A DNA stretch of 40,036 nucleotides. Origin: a virus. Positions 2,725-32,955 of the stretch are shown here, piece by piece. The notes below the pieces were generated by a model. The model had not been told where the DNA came from, did not search any database, and saw only the letters and a list, made by a program, of their open reading frames with translations. The number at the start of each line of letters is the position of its first letter. Within the stretch, counting starts at the first letter, position 1. The stretch spans positions 1 through 40,036 of the IMG/VR virus record IMGVR_UViG_3300044727_000119, one strand, 5' to 3'. Position numbers and translations under genes: made by a program.

Positions 2725-3389
2725 ACGTCGCGATCCTTGTTCCAACTTTGGGCCGCGCCGATGCGCTGGCCCCACTGCTCCAGAACCTCTGCCAGGTCAC
2801 CGAATTTCGTTACCGGGTCTACTTCGTGGTCGATCGAGAGGACCAGGAGACCCGGCATGTGCTAGAGACGATGCCGGGATTCGACTTCGTAACGGTGGTA
2901 TGTGACGGCACCTTCCCGGAGAAGACCAATGCTGGGTACAGGGCTTCATCTGAGGAGCTGGTTGCTCCACTGGCCGACGATGTGGTCTTTCGCGCTGGCT
3001 GGCTCGAGGCAGCGCTGCCGCACTTCGAAGCTGGATGGCAGGTGGTCGGGACCTACGATCGCACGCCGGTAACGGATGGCGGATGGCATGTCACGATGCC
3101 GATCCTTCGGCGCTCCTACATCGAAGGTCCGGGGGCGGCCTGGGGTGAGACCGACACGGTCTTCCACGAAGGGCTACATCACAATTTCACGGACACCGAG
3201 CTCTGGCAGCTCGCTCGGCATCGAGACGTGGCTGTCTTCGAGCCTGAGTCGGTCATCGAGCATCGGCACCCGCAGTGGGGGACCCGGCCGGCCGACGCGA
3301 CTGACGCCAAGGGCAACGGTCAAAACTGGGAGGCCGATGAGGCGCTCTTCATCCGCCGCAAGGAGGAATGGAGCGCGGTTCCAGCATGA
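2721..3389 (+). CDS. Glycosyltransferase, GT2-like (GT-A fold)
   Basis: This 222-residue protein starts with a classic GT-A nucleotide-sugar entry strand (MNVAILVPTLGRADALAPLL). A second strand and a DDV acidic motif follow near residue 91 (PLADDVVFRAGWLEAAL), a good candidate for metal and sugar-nucleotide binding. HxFTDTELW near residues 154-162 resembles the acceptor-side region in which a carboxylate acts as base. It probably transfers a sugar from a UDP- or GDP-sugar to an acceptor in the cytoplasm. The start is a GTG within the GTGA overlap with the adaptor gene. The neighbours on the + strand are two more glycosyltransferases. Virion protein glycosylation is a plausible role, because some actinobacteriophages modify capsid or tail proteins this way, but the acceptor is unknown. 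Confidence 0.8.
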   Translation: MNVAILVPTLGRADALAPLLQNLCQVTEFRYRVYFVVDREDQETRHVLETMPGFDFVTVVCDGTFPEKTNAGYRASSEELVAPLADDVVFRAGWLEAALPHFEAGWQVVGTYDRTPVTDGGWHVTMPILRRSYIEGPGAAWGETDTVFHEGLHHNFTDTELWQLARHRDVAVFEPESVIEHRHPQWGTRPADATDAKGNGQNWEADEALFIRRKEEWSAVPA

Positions 3390-4729
3390 GGGTGGTAGCC
3401 CTGGTTCCCCGGCTCGCTGATGGTGGTGAGCGCGATCGTCTGTGGCGGTGGTGCAAGCGCTATTGGGCTGAGCAGTTTCCTGATCTTCTTCTGGTGGAAG
3501 GCCATGATCCGACCGATGGCCCGTTCAATCGCTCGGCAGCACTGAACGCGGCGGCAGAGGGCGAGTGGGACGTGGCGGTCATCCTTGATGCCGACACGAT
3601 CCTTGACGCTGAGTCGATCCGGCGGGGTATCGCCCTCGCCTCGGAGGCCGGGCGCCTGGTCCTTCCCTTCTCAGATCGGTGTCTGGTGAGCCGACAGGGG
3701 ACGCGGAAGATCCTGGACGGCTACCGAGGTTCGTGGCGACGCTTCGTGACAGCCCGGCAAACCCCTTCGGACTCCTACGTCTACATCTCTGGTTGCCAGG
3801 TAGTTCCGCGGGCGCTGTGGGATGAGATCGGCGGATTCGACGAGCGCTTTGAGTCCTACGGTGGCGAGGACGATGCTTTCCACGCCGCCTCCGTGGCCCT
3901 GACGGGGCACGATGCTCGGGAGGATCGACCGGAGGGGAGCTGCTGGCATCTCTGGCATCGGCCCTCGCCTGAGGCTCGGAATCGGCCGGCGCGAAAGCTG
4001 GTCGCGGCCCTCGCCGACCGCTACACGAGCTGCGTGCGGGACCGCGAACGGATGCGGGCGTTGCTCGATGAGCCGCGGACGCCCGATCAGATTGTCCTCT
4101 CCGTTCTGACCTGCCCCGGCCGCGACACGCTCGAGCAGACGATCGCCTCGCTGGATGAGCAGCTCGACGGGCCGGTGGGGCGCAAGATCATCTGTGTCGA
4201 TGCCGAGGAGGTTCACTTCGATCCCTTCTCAGGCTGGGAGGCGATCCCGATGGGTCCCTCTCAGGGCTACACGACCGCGATGCGTCGATGCCAGGAGATC
4301 GAGATGGGGTCGGGGCAGGCCTGGGTGGCCCACTGCGAGGACGATGTGCTGCTCAACCGACCCGTCGACCTCGACGAGATGCAGTTGGTCATGGAGGAGC
4401 ATCCTGACCTCGCCCAGCTCTCGCTCAAGCGCCAGGCAGTTCATCCGGAGGAGGTCGAGGTGGGGGACATGCTCGCCTGGCGGCCGGAAGGGACCTTCGA
4501 GGAGCGAGATGGGCATATCGCCCACCGTGCCTTCTGGGCCGCGACGTTCTCGCTGACTCGGCGGCGGTTCCTTGCGGAGCACCCGTGGCCCCTGCAGGGG
4601 GACTCGGAGCGGCGGTTCGGTAATCAACTCTTCCGTCAGACGCGCCTGCGTGGCGGGATTCTGGGTGGCTTGGAGGACGCGCCGCGGATGACGCACATCG
4701 GCCATGAGAGGGCGGGCGTTGGCTACTGA
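3386..4729 (+). CDS. Two-domain glycosyltransferase
   Basis: This 447-residue protein appears to be a fusion of two GT-A domains. Domain 1 (about 1-220) has MRVVALVPRL, the ILDADTILD metal-binding motif, and GGFDERFESYGGEDDAF, a hallmark of GT2/GT7-type enzymes where the ED pair contributes the catalytic base. Domain 2 (about 235-447) restarts with IVLSVLTCPGRDTLEQTI and has HCEDDVLL as its own acidic motif. I take the ATG in the ATGA overlap with the preceding gene as start. An in-frame ATG six codons earlier is also possible. The two domains could add two different sugars in sequence, or one may be structural. The gene ends just before a bidirectional-looking hairpin. Confidence 0.8.
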   Translation: MRVVALVPRLADGGERDRLWRWCKRYWAEQFPDLLLVEGHDPTDGPFNRSAALNAAAEGEWDVAVILDADTILDAESIRRGIALASEAGRLVLPFSDRCLVSRQGTRKILDGYRGSWRRFVTARQTPSDSYVYISGCQVVPRALWDEIGGFDERFESYGGEDDAFHAASVALTGHDAREDRPEGSCWHLWHRPSPEARNRPARKLVAALADRYTSCVRDRERMRALLDEPRTPDQIVLSVLTCPGRDTLEQTIASLDEQLDGPVGRKIICVDAEEVHFDPFSGWEAIPMGPSQGYTTAMRRCQEIEMGSGQAWVAHCEDDVLLNRPVDLDEMQLVMEEHPDLAQLSLKRQAVHPEEVEVGDMLAWRPEGTFEERDGHIAHRAFWAATFSLTRRRFLAEHPWPLQGDSERRFGNQLFRQTRLRGGILGGLEDAPRMTHIGHERAGVGY

Positions 4730-4737
4730 ACGCAAAC

Positions 4738-4758
4738 GACCCGCCACGGGGGCGGGTC
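4738..4758. terminator. Hairpin between convergent genes
   Basis: GACCCGCC and GGCGGGTC form a perfect 8-bp stem with a 5-base loop. It lies between the end of the + strand glycosyltransferase at 4729 and the end of the - strand gene at 4794. There is no long U-tract on either strand, so it may act as a weak or factor-assisted bidirectional terminator. Confidence 0.45.
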
Positions 4759-4793
4759 GATGCGCAGAGCGGGCGAAGTTGGAGACAGGCCCG

Positions 4794-5003
4794 CTAAGTT
4801 TCGGCAGCGACGCGGTTGCGAGACTTTCGTTCTTCGACTCCTCCATCGAGTGCGCGCGCGGCGGCGAGATATGCATCCTTGCTCTCATCGCGGGTTGCGA
4901 ACCAGCGCGTCCACCCGTGGTCAACTTCTGACAAGGTCGCGCGCCACTCCATATGCGCCTCGTAAAGCTTCTGGGCCAGCGAGTCGGCCAGTCGATCGTC
5001 CAT
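4794..5003 (-). CDS. Small opposite-strand protein in glycosyltransferase cassette
   Basis: A 69-residue protein is encoded against the direction of the head operon. I do not recognise the family. It is mostly helical with many charged residues and four tryptophans or nearby aromatics in the middle (HMEWRATLSEVDHGWTRWF), and a basic C-terminal tail. The start is chosen at an ATG preceded by GGAGGGA on the - strand. An upstream in-frame ATG at 5045 would add a very basic 14-residue extension without a good ribosome site. No membrane segment is visible. Having its own strong ribosome site on the antisense strand suggests independent expression, perhaps in the lysogen. Reality is supported by the ribosome site and by the absence of any + strand gene here. 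Confidence 0.55.
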   Translation of the reverse strand: MDDRLADSLAQKLYEAHMEWRATLSEVDHGWTRWFATRDESKDAYLAAARALDGGVEERKSRNRVAAET

Positions 5004-5068
5004 CTCGGGTCTCCCTCCGAGTAGTCGCTTTTTTCGTTTGCCCATCCTATCGCTGGGGAGGCTCGGGT

Positions 5069-5746
5069 TTGGTCACTGTCGTAGTGCCTTTTCGCGGAGG
5101 TTGCCCCTACCGCGAGAGAGCATGGGAGTGGGTACAGGCCCGCTACGTCGAGCACCATCCTGACTGGGAAGTAATTGAGGCTTCGGCGCCAGAGGGGCCG
5201 TGGTCCAAGGGAGCCGCGGTCAACCCGGTGGTGCGGGGGTGCGACGCCGAGATCGTCATTCAGGCCGATTCGGACGTGTGGTGTGACGGGCTCGAGCGAG
5301 CCGTCTACGCAGTGATCTGCGGACAAGCTGAATGGGCAGTTCCTCATCGCCTGGTTCACAGGCTTGGTGAGGAGGCGACTGAAGCAGTGCTTGATGGCGC
5401 GGACTGGCGAGAGCAGACGGACCTCGCACAGAAGCCCTACGAAGGATTCTGGGGCGGTGGGGTTGTGGTCGGCCGACGCGACGCGCTTCTTGACTGCCTG
5501 ATCGATCCACGGTTTCGATCTTGGGGGCAGGAGGACGAATCATGGGCGCTCGCGCTTAGTTGCCTGCGAGGCAAAGGGTGGCGAGGGGAGGCCGACCTGA
5601 TCCATTGCTGGCACCCGCCAGCCGAACGTCAGAACCGCCGGTATGGGTCACGAGAGAACCGTGCCCTCCACAGCCGCTATCGCCGGGCCCGCCGTGACCC
5701 GAGACGAATGCGAGCCCTTCTTCAGGAGGCGAGAGACCAAGGATGA
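5069..5746 (+). CDS. Glycosyltransferase, GT2-like, third of cassette
   Basis: This 225-residue enzyme begins MVTVVVPFRGGCPYRERAW, a GT-A first strand. The metal-binding acidic motif is QADSDVW near residue 70. The later GFWGGGVVVGRRDALL and WGQEDESWALAL segments match the GGG and ED signatures of GT2/GT27-like enzymes, where the aspartate or glutamate acts as base. The start is a TTG with GGGGAGG eight bases upstream. A much longer upstream open frame from 4760 has no coding character and covers the opposite-strand gene, so I rejected it. The stop overlaps the head-closure gene by four bases (ATGA), so translation of this enzyme is coupled to a structural gene. The acceptor is unknown. Confidence 0.8.
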   Translation: MVTVVVPFRGGCPYRERAWEWVQARYVEHHPDWEVIEASAPEGPWSKGAAVNPVVRGCDAEIVIQADSDVWCDGLERAVYAVICGQAEWAVPHRLVHRLGEEATEAVLDGADWREQTDLAQKPYEGFWGGGVVVGRRDALLDCLIDPRFRSWGQEDESWALALSCLRGKGWRGEADLIHCWHPPAERQNRRYGSRENRALHSRYRRARRDPRRMRALLQEARDQG

Positions 5747-26447: not shown

Positions 26448-26460
26448 AGGTTCCCTGTTA

Positions 26461-26507
26461 AAAGCCCTCGTCTCCCTGTCCCTGGGGGAGACGAGGGCTT
26501 TTTTTGT
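26461..26507 (+). terminator. Strong intrinsic terminator of the late operon
   Basis: A perfect 16-bp stem is formed by 26461-26476 and 26486-26501 around a 9-base loop, followed by a run of T on the + strand. The stem is GC-rich (GCCCTCGTCTCCC arm). This is a textbook Rho-independent terminator ending the late operon after the holin. Confidence 0.9.
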
Positions 26508-26574
26508 TGCCAACTTTCAGTGATGGAGATATCTACACCTCTCAAGGCTTCTTTTCATAAAGTGCCGCGCCGTG

Positions 26575-27468
26575 ATGGGCAAAGCTGAATATCGACAGTT
26601 GGCTGACGGGCTGACTGCACGCGTCGCGCCCGTGTGGTCAGAGGAGAAGTTGATGATTCTCGAGGCCTACTTGAAGGCCTTCGCCAAGGCGTGCACGAAG
26701 GTCGGGGGCTGGTATGCCCTTGATCTGTTTGCCGGCAGTGGAGGTAACTGGTCACAGGTCAGAGAAGTGGAGCGGCTGAGCTCACCGCAGATTGCCCTGC
26801 AGGCGGGAGAGCCGAAGGCCGTGAAAGTAGTCGCAGCTGAGAGCGCGGGGCGGCTCCATTCGGCGCTGGAGGCCCGGACGGAGGCCTACGGGGACAGGAT
26901 CGTGCTGTTTAAGGAGGACGCGAATCGCGCCGTCGATCGCATGCTGCGAGCAATCCCGGTCAAGGCGCCCACCTTCGCCTTTCTGGATCCAGAGGGCTCA
27001 GAGCTTGACTGGCAGACCGTTCATGCAATAGCCGACCACAAGCGCGGCCATAGTCGAACCAAGATCGAGCAGTTGATTCTCTTTCCGACCGATACCGGCT
27101 TCATGCGCCTGGCACCCGAGCGTCCTGAGTATGTGACGAGGATCTTTGGGAACGAGGATTGGATGGAGATTTACGAGAGGCGGGTTGCCAACAAGCTTTC
27201 TCCCGACCAGGCCCGCGGGCTGTACGTCCAGCTCTATGGGCGAGGGCTACGGCGGCTCGGCTACGACGTCGTGCTCGATCGGCAAATCACCAAGGACAAC
27301 GGGCAACCGATGTACTTCCTGATCTTCGCAACCGACCACAGTGCCGGCGAGCGCATCATGGACCACTGCTTCAACCAGGTGCGCGTCCGAGTGGCGGAGG
27401 AGCTGGGGCAAGGCCAGCTCTTTACCCTTCCGGAGGCGCCTCGGCGAAAGCGCCTAGACGAGGGTTAG
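26575..27468 (+). CDS. tcmP: Three-Cys-motif partner protein TcmP
   Basis: This 297-residue protein belongs to the TcmP family, whose members are named for their repeated pairing with three-Cys-motif proteins. Residues 45-60 carry a methyltransferase-like glycine loop (WYALDLFAGSGGN), and the motif FAFLDPEGSELDW near 140 fits the catalytic-strand region of Rossmann-fold enzymes. The C-terminal part (RGLRRLGYDVVLDRQITKD, then YFLIFATDHSAG) is family-typical. It may be an S-adenosylmethionine-dependent enzyme acting on nucleic acid, but the substrate is not established. The GTG three bases upstream of the ATG is an alternative start, and no strong ribosome site is visible. Its 3' end overlaps the convergent partner gene by 15 bases. 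Confidence 0.85.
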   Translation: MGKAEYRQLADGLTARVAPVWSEEKLMILEAYLKAFAKACTKVGGWYALDLFAGSGGNWSQVREVERLSSPQIALQAGEPKAVKVVAAESAGRLHSALEARTEAYGDRIVLFKEDANRAVDRMLRAIPVKAPTFAFLDPEGSELDWQTVHAIADHKRGHSRTKIEQLILFPTDTGFMRLAPERPEYVTRIFGNEDWMEIYERRVANKLSPDQARGLYVQLYGRGLRRLGYDVVLDRQITKDNGQPMYFLIFATDHSAGERIMDHCFNQVRVRVAEELGQGQLFTLPEAPRRKRLDEG

Positions 27469-28185
27469 GGCTGCGGCGCGGTGAGGCATGGCATCGTGCG
27501 TCGTGCCTTCGAGCTGGCGACCGCCGGACTTTGGGCGGAACCCTCCCCACTGCTTGAAGAAAAAGGCGACGTTCGCGTTATGACAACGGTCACGAAGGTC
27601 GACCAGCCACTCTTCTTTCACCTGCCGATGTGCGGGGCCTGACTCGCCACCTGCGATCAGCCAGTGGATCCCATCGAGGTCAAGGTCTTCGAGTGGGCCG
27701 AGCAGAGGCTCGGCTGAAATGAAGCGCACGGCGGCTGGCACCTGGCGCAGGCAATCGGCCCGGTCTACGAACCGCCGATTCTCGATGCTCACGCCCATCC
27801 AGACGTTGCCGGGCCAAGGAAGGTCAGGCGCGATCTCGGCGAGCCTCTCATGGCGCTTGGTCAGGATCTGGAAGGTGTGGCGCTCCGCCCGGACCATCAC
27901 ATCGAAGACCCGCGAGATGTAGTCGAATGGGACGTCCTCATGGAAGAGGTCCGACATCGAATTGACGAAGACCATCCGAGGGCGCTTCCAGCGCATTGGC
28001 ATCTCTAGCCGCTGAGGCCAAAGTTTTAGGTCGAAACCCTGCTCGTAAGCGTGGCCGGGCACGCCTCGCCACCGCTCGGCAAATGCTTTCGCGTAGCAGT
28101 GGGCACAGCCCGGCGAAACCTCATCGCAGCCGGTTACAGGGTTCCAGGTTGACTCGGTCCACTCGATCGTGCTCCGGTCAGCCAT
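27454..28185 (-). CDS. Three-Cys-motif protein, DUF5131 (phage Gp37/Gp68)
   Basis: This 243-residue protein opens ADRSTIEWTESTWNPVTGC and then SPGCAHCYA, giving three cysteines at 20, 27 and 30 (C-x6-C-x2-C). The family is related in sequence style to radical-SAM/photoproduct-lyase-type enzymes, so an iron-sulphur cluster is likely. Further family marks are LKLWPQRLEMPMRWKRPRMV and FVNSMSDLFHEDVPF, plus GGESGPAHR and FFFKQWGG near the end. Its function is not established in the literature I know. The pairing with TcmP is the reason for the family name. Here the pair is convergent with a 15-base overlap, so either two promoters drive them or antisense regulation occurs. Confidence 0.88.
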   Translation of the reverse strand: MADRSTIEWTESTWNPVTGCDEVSPGCAHCYAKAFAERWRGVPGHAYEQGFDLKLWPQRLEMPMRWKRPRMVFVNSMSDLFHEDVPFDYISRVFDVMVRAERHTFQILTKRHERLAEIAPDLPWPGNVWMGVSIENRRFVDRADCLRQVPAAVRFISAEPLLGPLEDLDLDGIHWLIAGGESGPAHRQVKEEWLVDLRDRCHNANVAFFFKQWGGFRPKSGGRQLEGTTHDAMPHRAAALTLV

Positions 28186-28428: not shown

Positions 28429-28872
28429 TTGACCCAGCAGGGAAGTTATTCAGATTCGGCGCGGGTTGCCCTGATCGTGCAGGTTGTGATCGCCAGCCTC
28501 CTCGCAGCGGCCTGGGTGGCGATCATGCCCAGCACTGCATCCGCAGATTCCTTTGCAGGGCACGTCCGCATACATCACACCTCTTGCTGTGGCCAGCAGG
28601 TCGCGGTCTTCAAGGCTTTCGGCCAAAGCGAAGTTGCGTATCGGGTCTGCCTAATCCGCCCAAGCGGCGAACGAAAGTGCCGAATCATGAGAACCGGTGC
28701 GGCTGGGTCACCTTCCCGAGCGACCTTCATCAACGCCGGCGTTGGCGTGCATCGGGTGATCTGGAAGGTAGGTGGTCGGCTCGTGGATAGCGACCGCTAT
28801 GTCGTGGTGGTGGAGCAGGACTTCCGGAGGCGCCTTCCGGCGAGAGCCGAGGAGGTCCGAACCGATGCCTGA
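28429..28872 (+). CDS. Secreted beta-rich protein (cargo)
   Basis: This 147-residue protein has an N-terminal signal peptide (about 1-40): a short polar start, hydrophobic VALIVQVVIASLLAAAWVA and a small-residue end (STASADSF) that fits a signal peptidase site. The mature part of about 100 residues has even strands and four cysteines (HHTSCCGQQ, VCLIRPSGERKC), consistent with a disulphide-linked Ig-like domain. The start is TTG with AAGGAG upstream. The stop overlaps the methyltransferase start by eight bases. Expression into the host envelope or outside suggests lysogenic conversion. Not recognised as a named family. Confidence 0.7.
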   Translation: MTQQGSYSDSARVALIVQVVIASLLAAAWVAIMPSTASADSFAGHVRIHHTSCCGQQVAVFKAFGQSEVAYRVCLIRPSGERKCRIMRTGAAGSPSRATFINAGVGVHRVIWKVGGRLVDSDRYVVVVEQDFRRRLPARAEEVRTDA

Positions 28873-29677
28873 TCAGATTTCAGATTCAGCTCGAGAGGCC
28901 TACGACACCCTCGCGCCTGCCTATGACGAATTCAACATCGAGGGCGCATACGAGCACTGGCTTGGCGATGTACTTGTGCCTGAGTTGGCCAAGCATGGGT
29001 TGAAAGTTGGTCGTGTGCTGGACGTTGGCTGTGGGACCGGCCATGCTTTCGATCCTCTTCTGAGTCGTGGCTGGGAGGTCTTCGGCGTTGACGGATCGGC
29101 GGCGATGCTCCGAGAAGCCGCCAAAAATCGGGCTGCTTCCCTTGTCGACGGTCCGGTGCCACTCGCCCAATTCGACGCACGCGAACTGCCGAAGTATCGG
29201 GAGCCTTTCGATTTGGTCATCCTCCTGAACGACGTCGTCAATTGCCTGACGGAGGACGGCGACCTCGAGCGATGCTTTGACGGCGTGGCGAGGAACCTTT
29301 CGCCGACCGGGTTGGTCTGCTTCGACGCGAACAACCTGAGCCTCTACGAAAGCGAGTGGCTCGCAGGTAGCGCGGGTGCGATGACCCAGAGCAGGGGATG
29401 GAACTGGACTGCCCTCACCCGGGAGGCGGTGCCCGGTGGGATCTTCGAGGTCGAACTTGGGGCCGAGGGCGTCGATGTGAGCCTTCATCGCCAGAGACAT
29501 TGGCCGCGGCCTGCCATCGAAGCGGCGCTCACCACTGCAGGCCTTCGAGTTTGTGCGGTGCTGGGGCAGCGCGAGAATGACGGCCGCGTCCTTCTGGGAA
29601 GCCGACCCGACGAAGTTAGGCACCACAAGATGGTCTTTGTCGCCGGGTCGGCACAAGAGGTCAGGAACCTTTCGTGA
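28865..29677 (+). CDS. Class I SAM-dependent methyltransferase (cargo)
   Basis: This 270-residue enzyme contains the SAM-binding motif VLDVGCGTG near residues 51-59, then FGVDGSAAMLREA for motif II, QFDARELP and FDLVILLNDVVNCL for motifs III and IV. It is a typical small-molecule type methyltransferase of the class I Rossmann fold. The C-terminal part (GGIFEVELGAEGVDVS, FVAGSAQEVR) is less conserved. Start ATG lies inside the end of the secreted protein gene. The stop overlaps a small gene by four bases (GTGA). Substrate unknown; the clustering with a secreted protein and a regulator suggests a small operon acquired from a bacterial chromosome. Confidence 0.85.
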   Translation: MPDQISDSAREAYDTLAPAYDEFNIEGAYEHWLGDVLVPELAKHGLKVGRVLDVGCGTGHAFDPLLSRGWEVFGVDGSAAMLREAAKNRAASLVDGPVPLAQFDARELPKYREPFDLVILLNDVVNCLTEDGDLERCFDGVARNLSPTGLVCFDANNLSLYESEWLAGSAGAMTQSRGWNWTALTREAVPGGIFEVELGAEGVDVSLHRQRHWPRPAIEAALTTAGLRVCAVLGQRENDGRVLLGSRPDEVRHHKMVFVAGSAQEVRNLS

Positions 29678-31794: not shown

Positions 31795-32028
31795 GTGTTC
31801 GCAGTTGAAGTCACCTTCGAGTTCGACCAGAACGGAGTGAGGTCTCGCTACGAGCGTAAAGAGACCCCGGAGGAGGCCGCCCAGTGCTTCGAAAGCGAGG
31901 CCGGTACCCCTCCCTGCGATCTCTCGCTGCTTGTTGAAGAACTTGCCCTGGGGAAGAAGCTCGAGGAGTTCGATGAAGAGACCGGCAAGCTGGTTGTCGC
32001 CTTTGAGCTCGTCGGGGCGGTGGTCTAG
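31795..32028 (+). CDS. Small acidic early protein
   Basis: This 77-residue protein, started by a GTG directly after the preceding stop, has a strand (FAVEVTFEFDQNGVRSRYER) followed by acidic helices (EELALGKKLEEFDEETG). I do not recognise it. The GGGGGGAG ribosome site eight bases upstream supports it. Acidic early phage proteins often mimic DNA or inhibit host enzymes; that is only a possibility here. Confidence 0.55.
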   Translation: MFAVEVTFEFDQNGVRSRYERKETPEEAAQCFESEAGTPPCDLSLLVEELALGKKLEEFDEETGKLVVAFELVGAVV

Positions 32029-32250
32029 GTGGAGCCGCTGGTTGTCGAGCCGCACATGGTCGAGCGGGTGGTGCCGGGTTACTACGACCGGCTCAACCGC
32101 GAACGCCGCCCTGAGCGCCGCTGCGAAGAGCAGAAAGGTTGGACGGCGCGGCGCGGTTCTCTGCAGGTGTGGTCGATGAGTCGCGACCTCGCCGTTCAGA
32201 TGCTCGGCTTCATGGAAGGCCACAAGCGAGCGGAGGCCGACCAGTCATGA
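32029..32250 (+). CDS. Small basic early protein
   Basis: This 73-residue protein starts with GTG immediately after the preceding stop and has a very basic middle (RLNRERRPERRCEEQKGWTA) and a helical end (MSRDLAVQMLGFMEGHKRAE). It may bind nucleic acid. Its stop overlaps the next start by four bases. Not recognised. Confidence 0.5.
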   Translation: MEPLVVEPHMVERVVPGYYDRLNRERRPERRCEEQKGWTARRGSLQVWSMSRDLAVQMLGFMEGHKRAEADQS

Positions 32251-32525
32251 CCTCCAAGCTCAGCTACTCCGTCCTAGTGGCCTCGTTGATCGCGAGCGCC
32301 CTCTACATCCCCTTCCTCGCCATCCCAACGTTGGATTGGTACTGGTGGTTCGGTTTCGTGCTGTTTGCCATTCCGGTGGTGACCGTCCTTGCTCCGGTCA
32401 TCTCCTACAAGTGGACGACGAGGCCGAGCCACCGGTACCCCGCTGCGCCTGCGCTCGACTATCGGGCTGAGATTGCAGTGAGGGACAAGACGCGCCGCGG
32501 TCCCGAACTCCGGAGGGCTGCCTGA
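32247..32525 (+). CDS. Small two-pass membrane protein
   Basis: This 92-residue protein has two hydrophobic segments: LVASLIASALYIPFLAI and WFGFVLFAIPVVTVLAPVI. A basic C-terminal tail (RDKTRRGPELRRAA) should lie in the cytoplasm. It is coupled to its neighbours by overlaps (ATGA at the start, TGATG at the end). Early membrane proteins may serve superinfection exclusion. Function not established. Confidence 0.6.
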   Translation: MTSKLSYSVLVASLIASALYIPFLAIPTLDWYWWFGFVLFAIPVVTVLAPVISYKWTTRPSHRYPAAPALDYRAEIAVRDKTRRGPELRRAA

Positions 32526-32848
32526 TGGCGACGGCAGTTAGGAGCAACGACCGCGAGCGGATGGCCGACGACCTCAAGGCACTGGGCCTCTACGCGACTG
32601 CGAACCTGGTCCGGGCGGGCAAGATCAGCCCGACTCACGGCGTCGAGCACGTGCGGCACTACGTCCTATCCGACGTGCTCGGGATGGCCCGGTCGCAGGA
32701 AGCGCACGAAAAGCAGTATCCGCCCATTCCGGGCACCTTCGGCGCCATCGCCCTCATCGGCATTCGCCAGCGCCTCGATCAACTTCAAGGCTTCCTAGGC
32801 GACTGGGCGGCCTACGACCTTCCGACTGCGGATCAAGAGGTCGCCTGA
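32525..32848 (+). CDS. Hypothetical early protein, 107 residues
   Basis: This helical protein (RERMADDLKALGLYATANLV, EHVRHYVLSDVLGMARSQE, LIGIRQRLDQLQGFLGDW) is not recognised. ATG overlaps the preceding stop by one base, and the stop overlaps the next ATG. It may form a helical bundle. Operon position is the only functional hint. Confidence 0.55.
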   Translation: MATAVRSNDRERMADDLKALGLYATANLVRAGKISPTHGVEHVRHYVLSDVLGMARSQEAHEKQYPPIPGTFGAIALIGIRQRLDQLQGFLGDWAAYDLPTADQEVA

Positions 32849-32955
32849 TGGCCTGCGCTCTCCTTGCCTTCGCTGCCGGCGGCTTCGCCGTTGCACTTAC
32901 CGACCTGCTGATTCAGGCCGGGCATCTCCGGCAGCGGAACTGGGGACCGCGATGA
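32848..32955 (+). CDS. 35-residue hydrophobic peptide
   Basis: ATG in a TGATG junction starts MACALLAFAAGGFAVALTDL, then a basic end (GHLRQRNWGPR). One membrane helix is likely. Its stop overlaps the next gene's ATG by four bases. Tiny but fully coupled on both sides. Confidence 0.5.
   Translation: MACALLAFAAGGFAVALTDLLIQAGHLRQRNWGPR

Follow-up and report, generated by a model that had tools for sequence, protein, structure and literature searches.

What do a TcmP gene and a gene for a three-Cys-motif (DUF5131) protein, joined tail to tail and standing apart from the structural genes, do for the tailed phage that carries them? The pair is already known, being catalogued in PADLOC-DB as the two-gene candidates PDC-M41 and PDC-M30, and the copy described here is one more member. 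New here are the predicted folds of both proteins, the finding that TcmP depends on a neighbour of radical-SAM type, and the rapid divergence of the TcmP sequences.

A convergent pair between the late genes and a cargo group

The window, that is, the whole stretch of 40,036 nucleotides analysed from virus record IMGVR_UViG_3300044727_000119, belongs to a tailed phage, with a head scaffold and a major head protein at its left end, two Cro/C1-type regulators at 31.2-31.7 kb and an Erf-type annealing protein at 33.4 kb. The features of the locus are as follows:

26460-26502, + strand: predicted intrinsic terminator between the late genes and the pair (18-bp stem and U tail)
26575-27468, + strand: TcmP gene, 297 aa (start ATG at 26575 or GTG at 26572)
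26722-26745, + strand: TcmP motif I, DLFAGSGG, residues 50-57, predicted SAM loop
26986-26997, + strand: TcmP motif IV, DPEG, residues 138-141, predicted catalytic motif
27454-27468: tail-to-tail overlap of the TcmP and DUF5131 genes, 15 nt by ORF coordinates
28185-27454, - strand: DUF5131 gene, 243 aa
28096-28128, - strand: DUF5131 codons Cys20-Cys30 (C-x6-C-x2-C), predicted Fe-S ligands

The first-pass annotation of this DNA had described two convergent genes with a 15-base overlap, placed between a late-operon terminator and a cargo operon, and both points are confirmed by the ORF coordinates and by the surrounding features. The hairpin at 26460-26502 folds with -34.6 kcal/mol and is much more stable than its shuffles (z -6.4). 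On the other side of the pair, the first cargo ORF on the + strand begins at 28429 and encodes a small protein, followed by a generic methyltransferase (28868) and an ArsR-like regulator (29775). The methyltransferase (28868-29677) is of generic class I and matches MADS mad2 with an E value of 4.8e-16, over a stretch of 119 residues only. No tyrosine or serine integrase was found within the 40 kb of the window, a record that may be incomplete, and no repressor lies directly in front of TcmP. The phage collection held no near relative of this phage. In the structural region, just past the major head protein, two galactosyltransferase-like genes occupy 3368-5746.

The tail-to-tail overlap had also been read as a hint of antisense control. 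Among 119 clean pairs, however, 95 are co-directional with either gene first, 22 are convergent and 2 are divergent, and at least 22-25 layout switches are needed on the two gene trees, compared to about 54 for shuffled labels. Layout is thus inherited but changes frequently, and the overlap of the tails is no conserved device. The 15-nt overlap is itself ordinary, since most other convergent pairs lie between an overlap of about 45 nt and a gap of 50 nt. Because layouts vary and switch often, antisense control by the overlap was rejected as a general feature of the pair.

Linkage and divergence of the two families

TcmP is too divergent for a single-sequence pattern, and a search of viral contigs with one such TcmP pattern accordingly gave no match. 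Relatives were therefore collected starting from DUF5131, and a TcmP profile was built afterwards. The peptide-pattern search yielded 296 viral stretches that were matched and confirmed, indicating that the pair is common in phages. In a sample of 80 viral loci found via DUF5131, in which TcmP was scored with its own profile, 63 had TcmP within 300 nt of DUF5131. TcmP was likewise found beside DUF5131 at 65 of 80 GTDB genome loci from many phyla, several of the remainder lying at contig ends. The co-occurrence that the first-pass annotation had mentioned is thereby borne out, and the genome-wide linkage on which it had staked the pairing beforehand is present: in 296 sampled Actinomycetota genomes, TcmP occurs in 35, DUF5131 in 34 and both in 23 (odds ratio 44, P 1.3e-17), the two being close together in 22 of these 23.

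Thirteen Actinomycetota genomes carry a TcmP that has no DUF5131 above the cut-off beside it. Two of them are cut by contig ends and were left out of the testable set; in all of the 11 that could be inspected, a radical-SAM-related protein adjoins TcmP. In Pseudomonadota, TcmP scored above the cut-off in 24 of 398 sampled genomes, with DUF5131 adjacent in every case. Over the two phyla, DUF5131 or another radical-SAM-type gene stands beside TcmP in 57 of 57 testable TcmP genomes, and the dependence of TcmP on such a neighbour is near-obligate. The reverse does not hold, as DUF5131 occurs without TcmP in 11 of the 34 Actinomycetota genomes and in several Mycobacterium and Gordonia phages. On one Caldilineales contig (L086) the two proteins are naturally fused in a single frame of 534 aa, with DUF5131 first. 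We consider it very probable that TcmP and DUF5131 work as one module.

The asymmetry between the two genes also bears on a toxin/antidote arrangement, in which TcmP would methylate an essential site in host RNA or DNA and be harmful alone, the radical-SAM enzyme would remove or overwrite the mark in a repair-like manner, and disturbance of the pair during infection would free TcmP and stop growth. That every testable TcmP genome has a radical-SAM-type gene beside TcmP, while DUF5131 occurs alone, is what this arrangement predicts, and the nearest fold of DUF5131 is that of a repair enzyme (see below). The same asymmetry is nevertheless expected if TcmP merely needs the product of the radical enzyme; moreover, gene order is free, with TcmP or DUF5131 first, and the module has no small antitoxin-like protein. 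We regard a toxin/antidote as unlikely.

The two genes differ strongly in their rate of change. Over the same 120 pairs, two TcmP proteins share 20% identity in the median and two DUF5131 proteins 56%, and the agreement of the two distance matrices, although above all 999 permutations, is weak (r 0.22). DUF5131 is thus constrained, whereas TcmP diverges fast and is sometimes exchanged. A TcmP that sets the target, or that faces attack by phages, would be expected to behave in this way.

Several loci depart from the two-gene form. At L231, L235 and L226, one DUF5131 stands between or ahead of two distinct TcmP genes (for proteins of about 415 and about 300 aa), so that the module has three genes. 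DUF5131 proteins of another subfamily (about 140 bits; L182 2773-3735, L183 3025-4080) have no TcmP and carry an extra C-terminal cysteine cluster. In phages Bipper, dwieneke and Bakery (L164-L166; Mycobacterium/Gordonia), DUF5131 without TcmP lies within long strings of small genes, with differing neighbours (HNH, DNA methylase), and its role there may differ.

Predicted folds and candidate chemistry

The DUF5131 protein of the window matches PF07505 over model positions 2-243 of 243 with 328.6 bits (gathering threshold 28.9, E 3e-98). Its AlphaFold2 model (pLDDT 89.6) is a partial TIM-barrel, and the top matches listed are nearly all radical-SAM enzymes. The best of them is spore photoproduct lyase (Z 13.8 over 196 residues, rmsd 2.9), followed by SuiB, viperins, lipoyl synthase and RlmN (Z 11-12). 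Cys20, Cys27 and Cys30, which the first-pass annotation had pointed out and whose variation in close homologues would by its own account have refuted it, are present with fixed spacing and invariant in all 61 aligned relatives, always followed by Tyr31; the peptide patterns by which these relatives were collected do not cover these residues. Cys201 (59 of 61) and GGES at 179-182 (all relatives) are also conserved and are candidates for catalytic or SAM-binding roles.

The earlier suggestion of an Fe-S/radical-SAM-like enzyme fits this predicted fold. At the sequence level, the window protein matched neither the Pfam Radical_SAM model PF04055 nor the spore photoproduct lyase (SPL) family model, and a sequence search of the PDB returned chance matches only, so that its likeness to spore photoproduct lyase rests on the fold. 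The spacing C-x6-C-x2-C also departs from the classical radical-SAM C-x3-C-x2-C, although variant cysteine spacings are known in the radical SAM superfamily. The link to PF04055 runs through the alternative TcmP partners. Of five scanned, four score above the PF04055 threshold and the fifth just below, all five match DUF5131 weakly (E 1e-5 to 5e-4), one matches SPL (E 3e-6) and one (L173) has the classical CxxxCxxC. A profile of these partners aligns with DUF5131 (E 7e-9) with the cysteine motifs superposed. As the connection exists only through these bridging partners, we name DUF5131 radical-SAM-type and do not file it in PF04055; that it is an enzyme of this type is highly likely.

In spore photoproduct lyase, as in DUF5131, the third cluster cysteine is followed by a tyrosine, which we take to be the Tyr98 of the solved Y98F mutant. 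The lyase differs in having the classical spacing and a length of about 340 aa, compared to 243 aa for DUF5131, which, unlike the lyase, is always cargo and usually accompanied by TcmP. Another system to be compared is the Radical SAM mobile pair (TIGR04471/TIGR04470). DUF5131 matches its member A (E 6.7e-21, below the cut-off) and the alternative partners match member B weakly, with scores far under the curated cut-offs. That pair consists of two radical-SAM proteins, whereas here one partner is a methyltransferase.

The viperin matches (Z 11.4-11.7) raise a small-molecule route, in which a viperin-like DUF5131 would act on free nucleotides to give chain-terminating or toxic products that TcmP tailors. 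We hold this to be extremely unlikely, because spore photoproduct lyase scores about 2 Z units higher and RlmJ-type methyltransferases, whose fold TcmP resembles, act on polynucleotides.

TcmP was assigned to TIGR04474 with 138.1 bits (curated cut-off 53, E 4.9e-40), and the adjacent three-Cys-motif protein that this family calls for is the DUF5131 protein, whose gene overlaps TcmP by 15 nt. No Pfam family matched the window TcmP, the RlmJ family PF04378 included. Its AlphaFold2 model (pLDDT 90) nevertheless matches RlmJ, the 23S rRNA A2030 N6-methyltransferase, along the full length (Foldseek E 1.3e-7; Z 19.4 over 226 residues), ahead of Trm1 as the next family (Z 15.0), and a TcmP profile searched against PDB sequences also gave RlmJ first (E 8e-4). 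The Rossmann-type loop DLFAGSGGN noted earlier can thus be assigned more narrowly to an RlmJ-like methyltransferase fold, and from the predicted structure TcmP is very probably a methyltransferase.

In the alignment with RlmJ, the Lys25 region, the SAM loop, a GSP-like motif and Asp138-Pro superpose. All 56 relatives keep Lys25 and Asp138, and nearly all keep Tyr32, while in motif I Asp50 is kept in 54 of 56 (Glu in the other two) and Gly54 in 55 of 56. Motif IV is DPPY in RlmJ, DP[FYW]G in most TcmP relatives and DPEG in the window copy. Since it is not DPPY, the identity of a canonical N6-adenine methyltransferase was considered and not adopted. The Trm1 guanine-N2 methyltransferases carry DPFG at this place, which makes methylation of a base amine by TcmP plausible as judged from the motif. 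Unlike RlmJ, TcmP belongs to a mobile pair with a radical-SAM-type enzyme. A longer TcmP (L167 2704-3789) has a weak C-terminal match to a GMT-like winged-helix domain (PF22560, E 7e-4, below the cut-off), which is absent from the short window TcmP.

Genomic setting and a candidate role in phage defence

The adjacent window genes match both component models of PDC-M41 and PDC-M30: DUF5131 matches M41B (E 6e-109) and M30B (E 1.6e-102), and TcmP matches M41A (E 3.5e-15) and M30A (E 1.4e-9), the moderate values for the latter marking the window TcmP as a divergent member. These are catalogue entries without a mechanism. PDC systems derive from guilt-by-embedding, and PDC-M30 was found in 32 of 100 P. 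aeruginosa strains, of which 68.8% were classed as resistant, a correlation only (PMC10855318). One putative transcriptional unit listed for Sinorhizobium meliloti groups a TcmP gene with hna, a gene of proven defence function (PMC12445080). We found no functional study of DUF5131, the three-Cys-motif proteins, the Radical SAM mobile pair or GMT-wHTH in the open-access literature, in which one may have been missed.

Among the matches listed, genes near the genomic pairs encode restriction enzymes of types IIG and III, a type I specificity subunit, PglZ, Shedu SduA, AbiEi and PD-Lambda proteins. In the same genomes, 175 PADLOC families were matched near the pairs, 132 at 6-10 kb and 50 at random places; these counts are not independent, the family names are known for the matches listed, and we claim no P value. 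The matches listed at random places are mainly kinase models, with three proteins each. The defence genes that the first-pass annotation proposed to look for are thus present among the neighbours, but genes 6-10 kb away are also defence-rich, which leaves the near-versus-far comparison uninformative.

The temperate Gordonia phages BaxterFox, Fairfaxidum and Easley have the pair in convergent layout, at most a few kb away from the integrase. Their TcmP lies on the strand of the immunity repressor gene and begins either 4 nt inside that gene or 3 nt past its end. The same slot behind the repressor is occupied in Gordonia phage CarolAnn by another two-gene cargo, the RexAB-like genes 43 and 44, which in lysogens are transcribed together with the repressor and confer protection from other phages (PMC6426606). 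The CarolAnn proteins, a membrane protein and a DUF4747-like protein, are unrelated to the TcmP pair; they were therefore rejected as an experimental case of TcmP/DUF5131, and their defence is proven while the pair is a candidate. In cluster N mycobacteriophages, defence genes map to a variable region between the lysis and immunity genes (PMC7542560). Cargo with a possible defence function, as first suggested for this locus, is consistent with these contexts and with the PADLOC entries, and on balance we lean slightly towards an anti-phage role of the pair.

We propose a mobile two-enzyme module for nucleic-acid modification, carried by phages as host-protecting (anti-phage) cargo, a reading for which we see the chances as evenly balanced. 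DUF5131 would bind a [4Fe-4S] cluster via Cys20, Cys27 and Cys30, cleave S-adenosylmethionine and place a radical on a nucleobase or ribose, in the way that spore photoproduct lyase, the closest relative by fold, does on DNA. TcmP, as a conventional SAM methyltransferase of RlmJ fold, would methylate a base in RNA or DNA. Both enzymes would act on the same substrate and TcmP would need the radical enzyme; TcmP, which diverges fast, would set the target or be the face that phages attack. To name a particular order in which the two act would be a guess. The linkage, the near-obligate TcmP dependence, the single fusion, the conserved residues and the predicted folds are results of this analysis, whereas we infer the cluster, chemistry, substrate, order of action and protection against other phages.

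Counted in favour of this proposal were the linkage, the L086 fusion, both folds with the bridging partners, the PADLOC entries, the neighbouring defence genes set against kinase matches at random places, the Gordonia repressor slot with its CarolAnn parallel, and the S. meliloti TcmP grouped with hna. Counted against it were the lack of a PF04055 match and the non-classical cysteine spacing of the window DUF5131, DUF5131 without TcmP in many phages, a window TcmP that is not behind a repressor, with no integrase found, and a coarse neighbour comparison in which far neighbours are also defence-rich. A more specific version is possible, if rather doubtful: a hitherto undescribed defence chemistry in which a spore-photoproduct-lyase-type radical-SAM enzyme and an RlmJ-type methyltransferase, in sequence or as toxin and antidote, would act on a base of host RNA or of invading nucleic acid, with TcmP choosing the target, and would sit beside the immunity repressor in temperate phages to exclude rivals.

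Two readings give the pair another use. Rather than attacking other phages, it might modify the DNA of its carrier phage or host tRNA/rRNA to escape host restriction or foreign nucleases, a form of counter-defence that would suit two SAM-using nucleic-acid-type enzymes in a module without a nuclease and the abundance of the pair in phages. The pair is, however, equally common in chromosomes and beside restriction systems, and the Gordonia copies adjoin the repressor, where genes are expressed in lysogens rather than during lytic growth, so that we rate such self-marking as quite unlikely. Neutral or metabolic cargo that plays no part against phages, for example DNA/RNA damage repair useful to the host, is less probable still: the sporadic spread of TcmP and the resemblance of DUF5131 to a DNA repair enzyme in fold would agree with it, but the neighbouring defence genes and the divergence of TcmP relative to DUF5131 suggest conflict rather than housekeeping.

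The anti-phage module that we favour is thus a widespread pair, catalogued for defence without a mechanism, whose predicted folds point to a chemistry worth testing. The folds, the TcmP dependence and the repressor slot in named, culturable Gordonia phages turn a bare candidate into a directly testable hypothesis, and the advance lies in this mechanistic frame together with named phages for testing. In BaxterFox, the DUF5131 gene (L162 8987-10000; about 31936-32949 of the record) is unannotated, and genes 40 and 41 are annotated there on the opposite strand.
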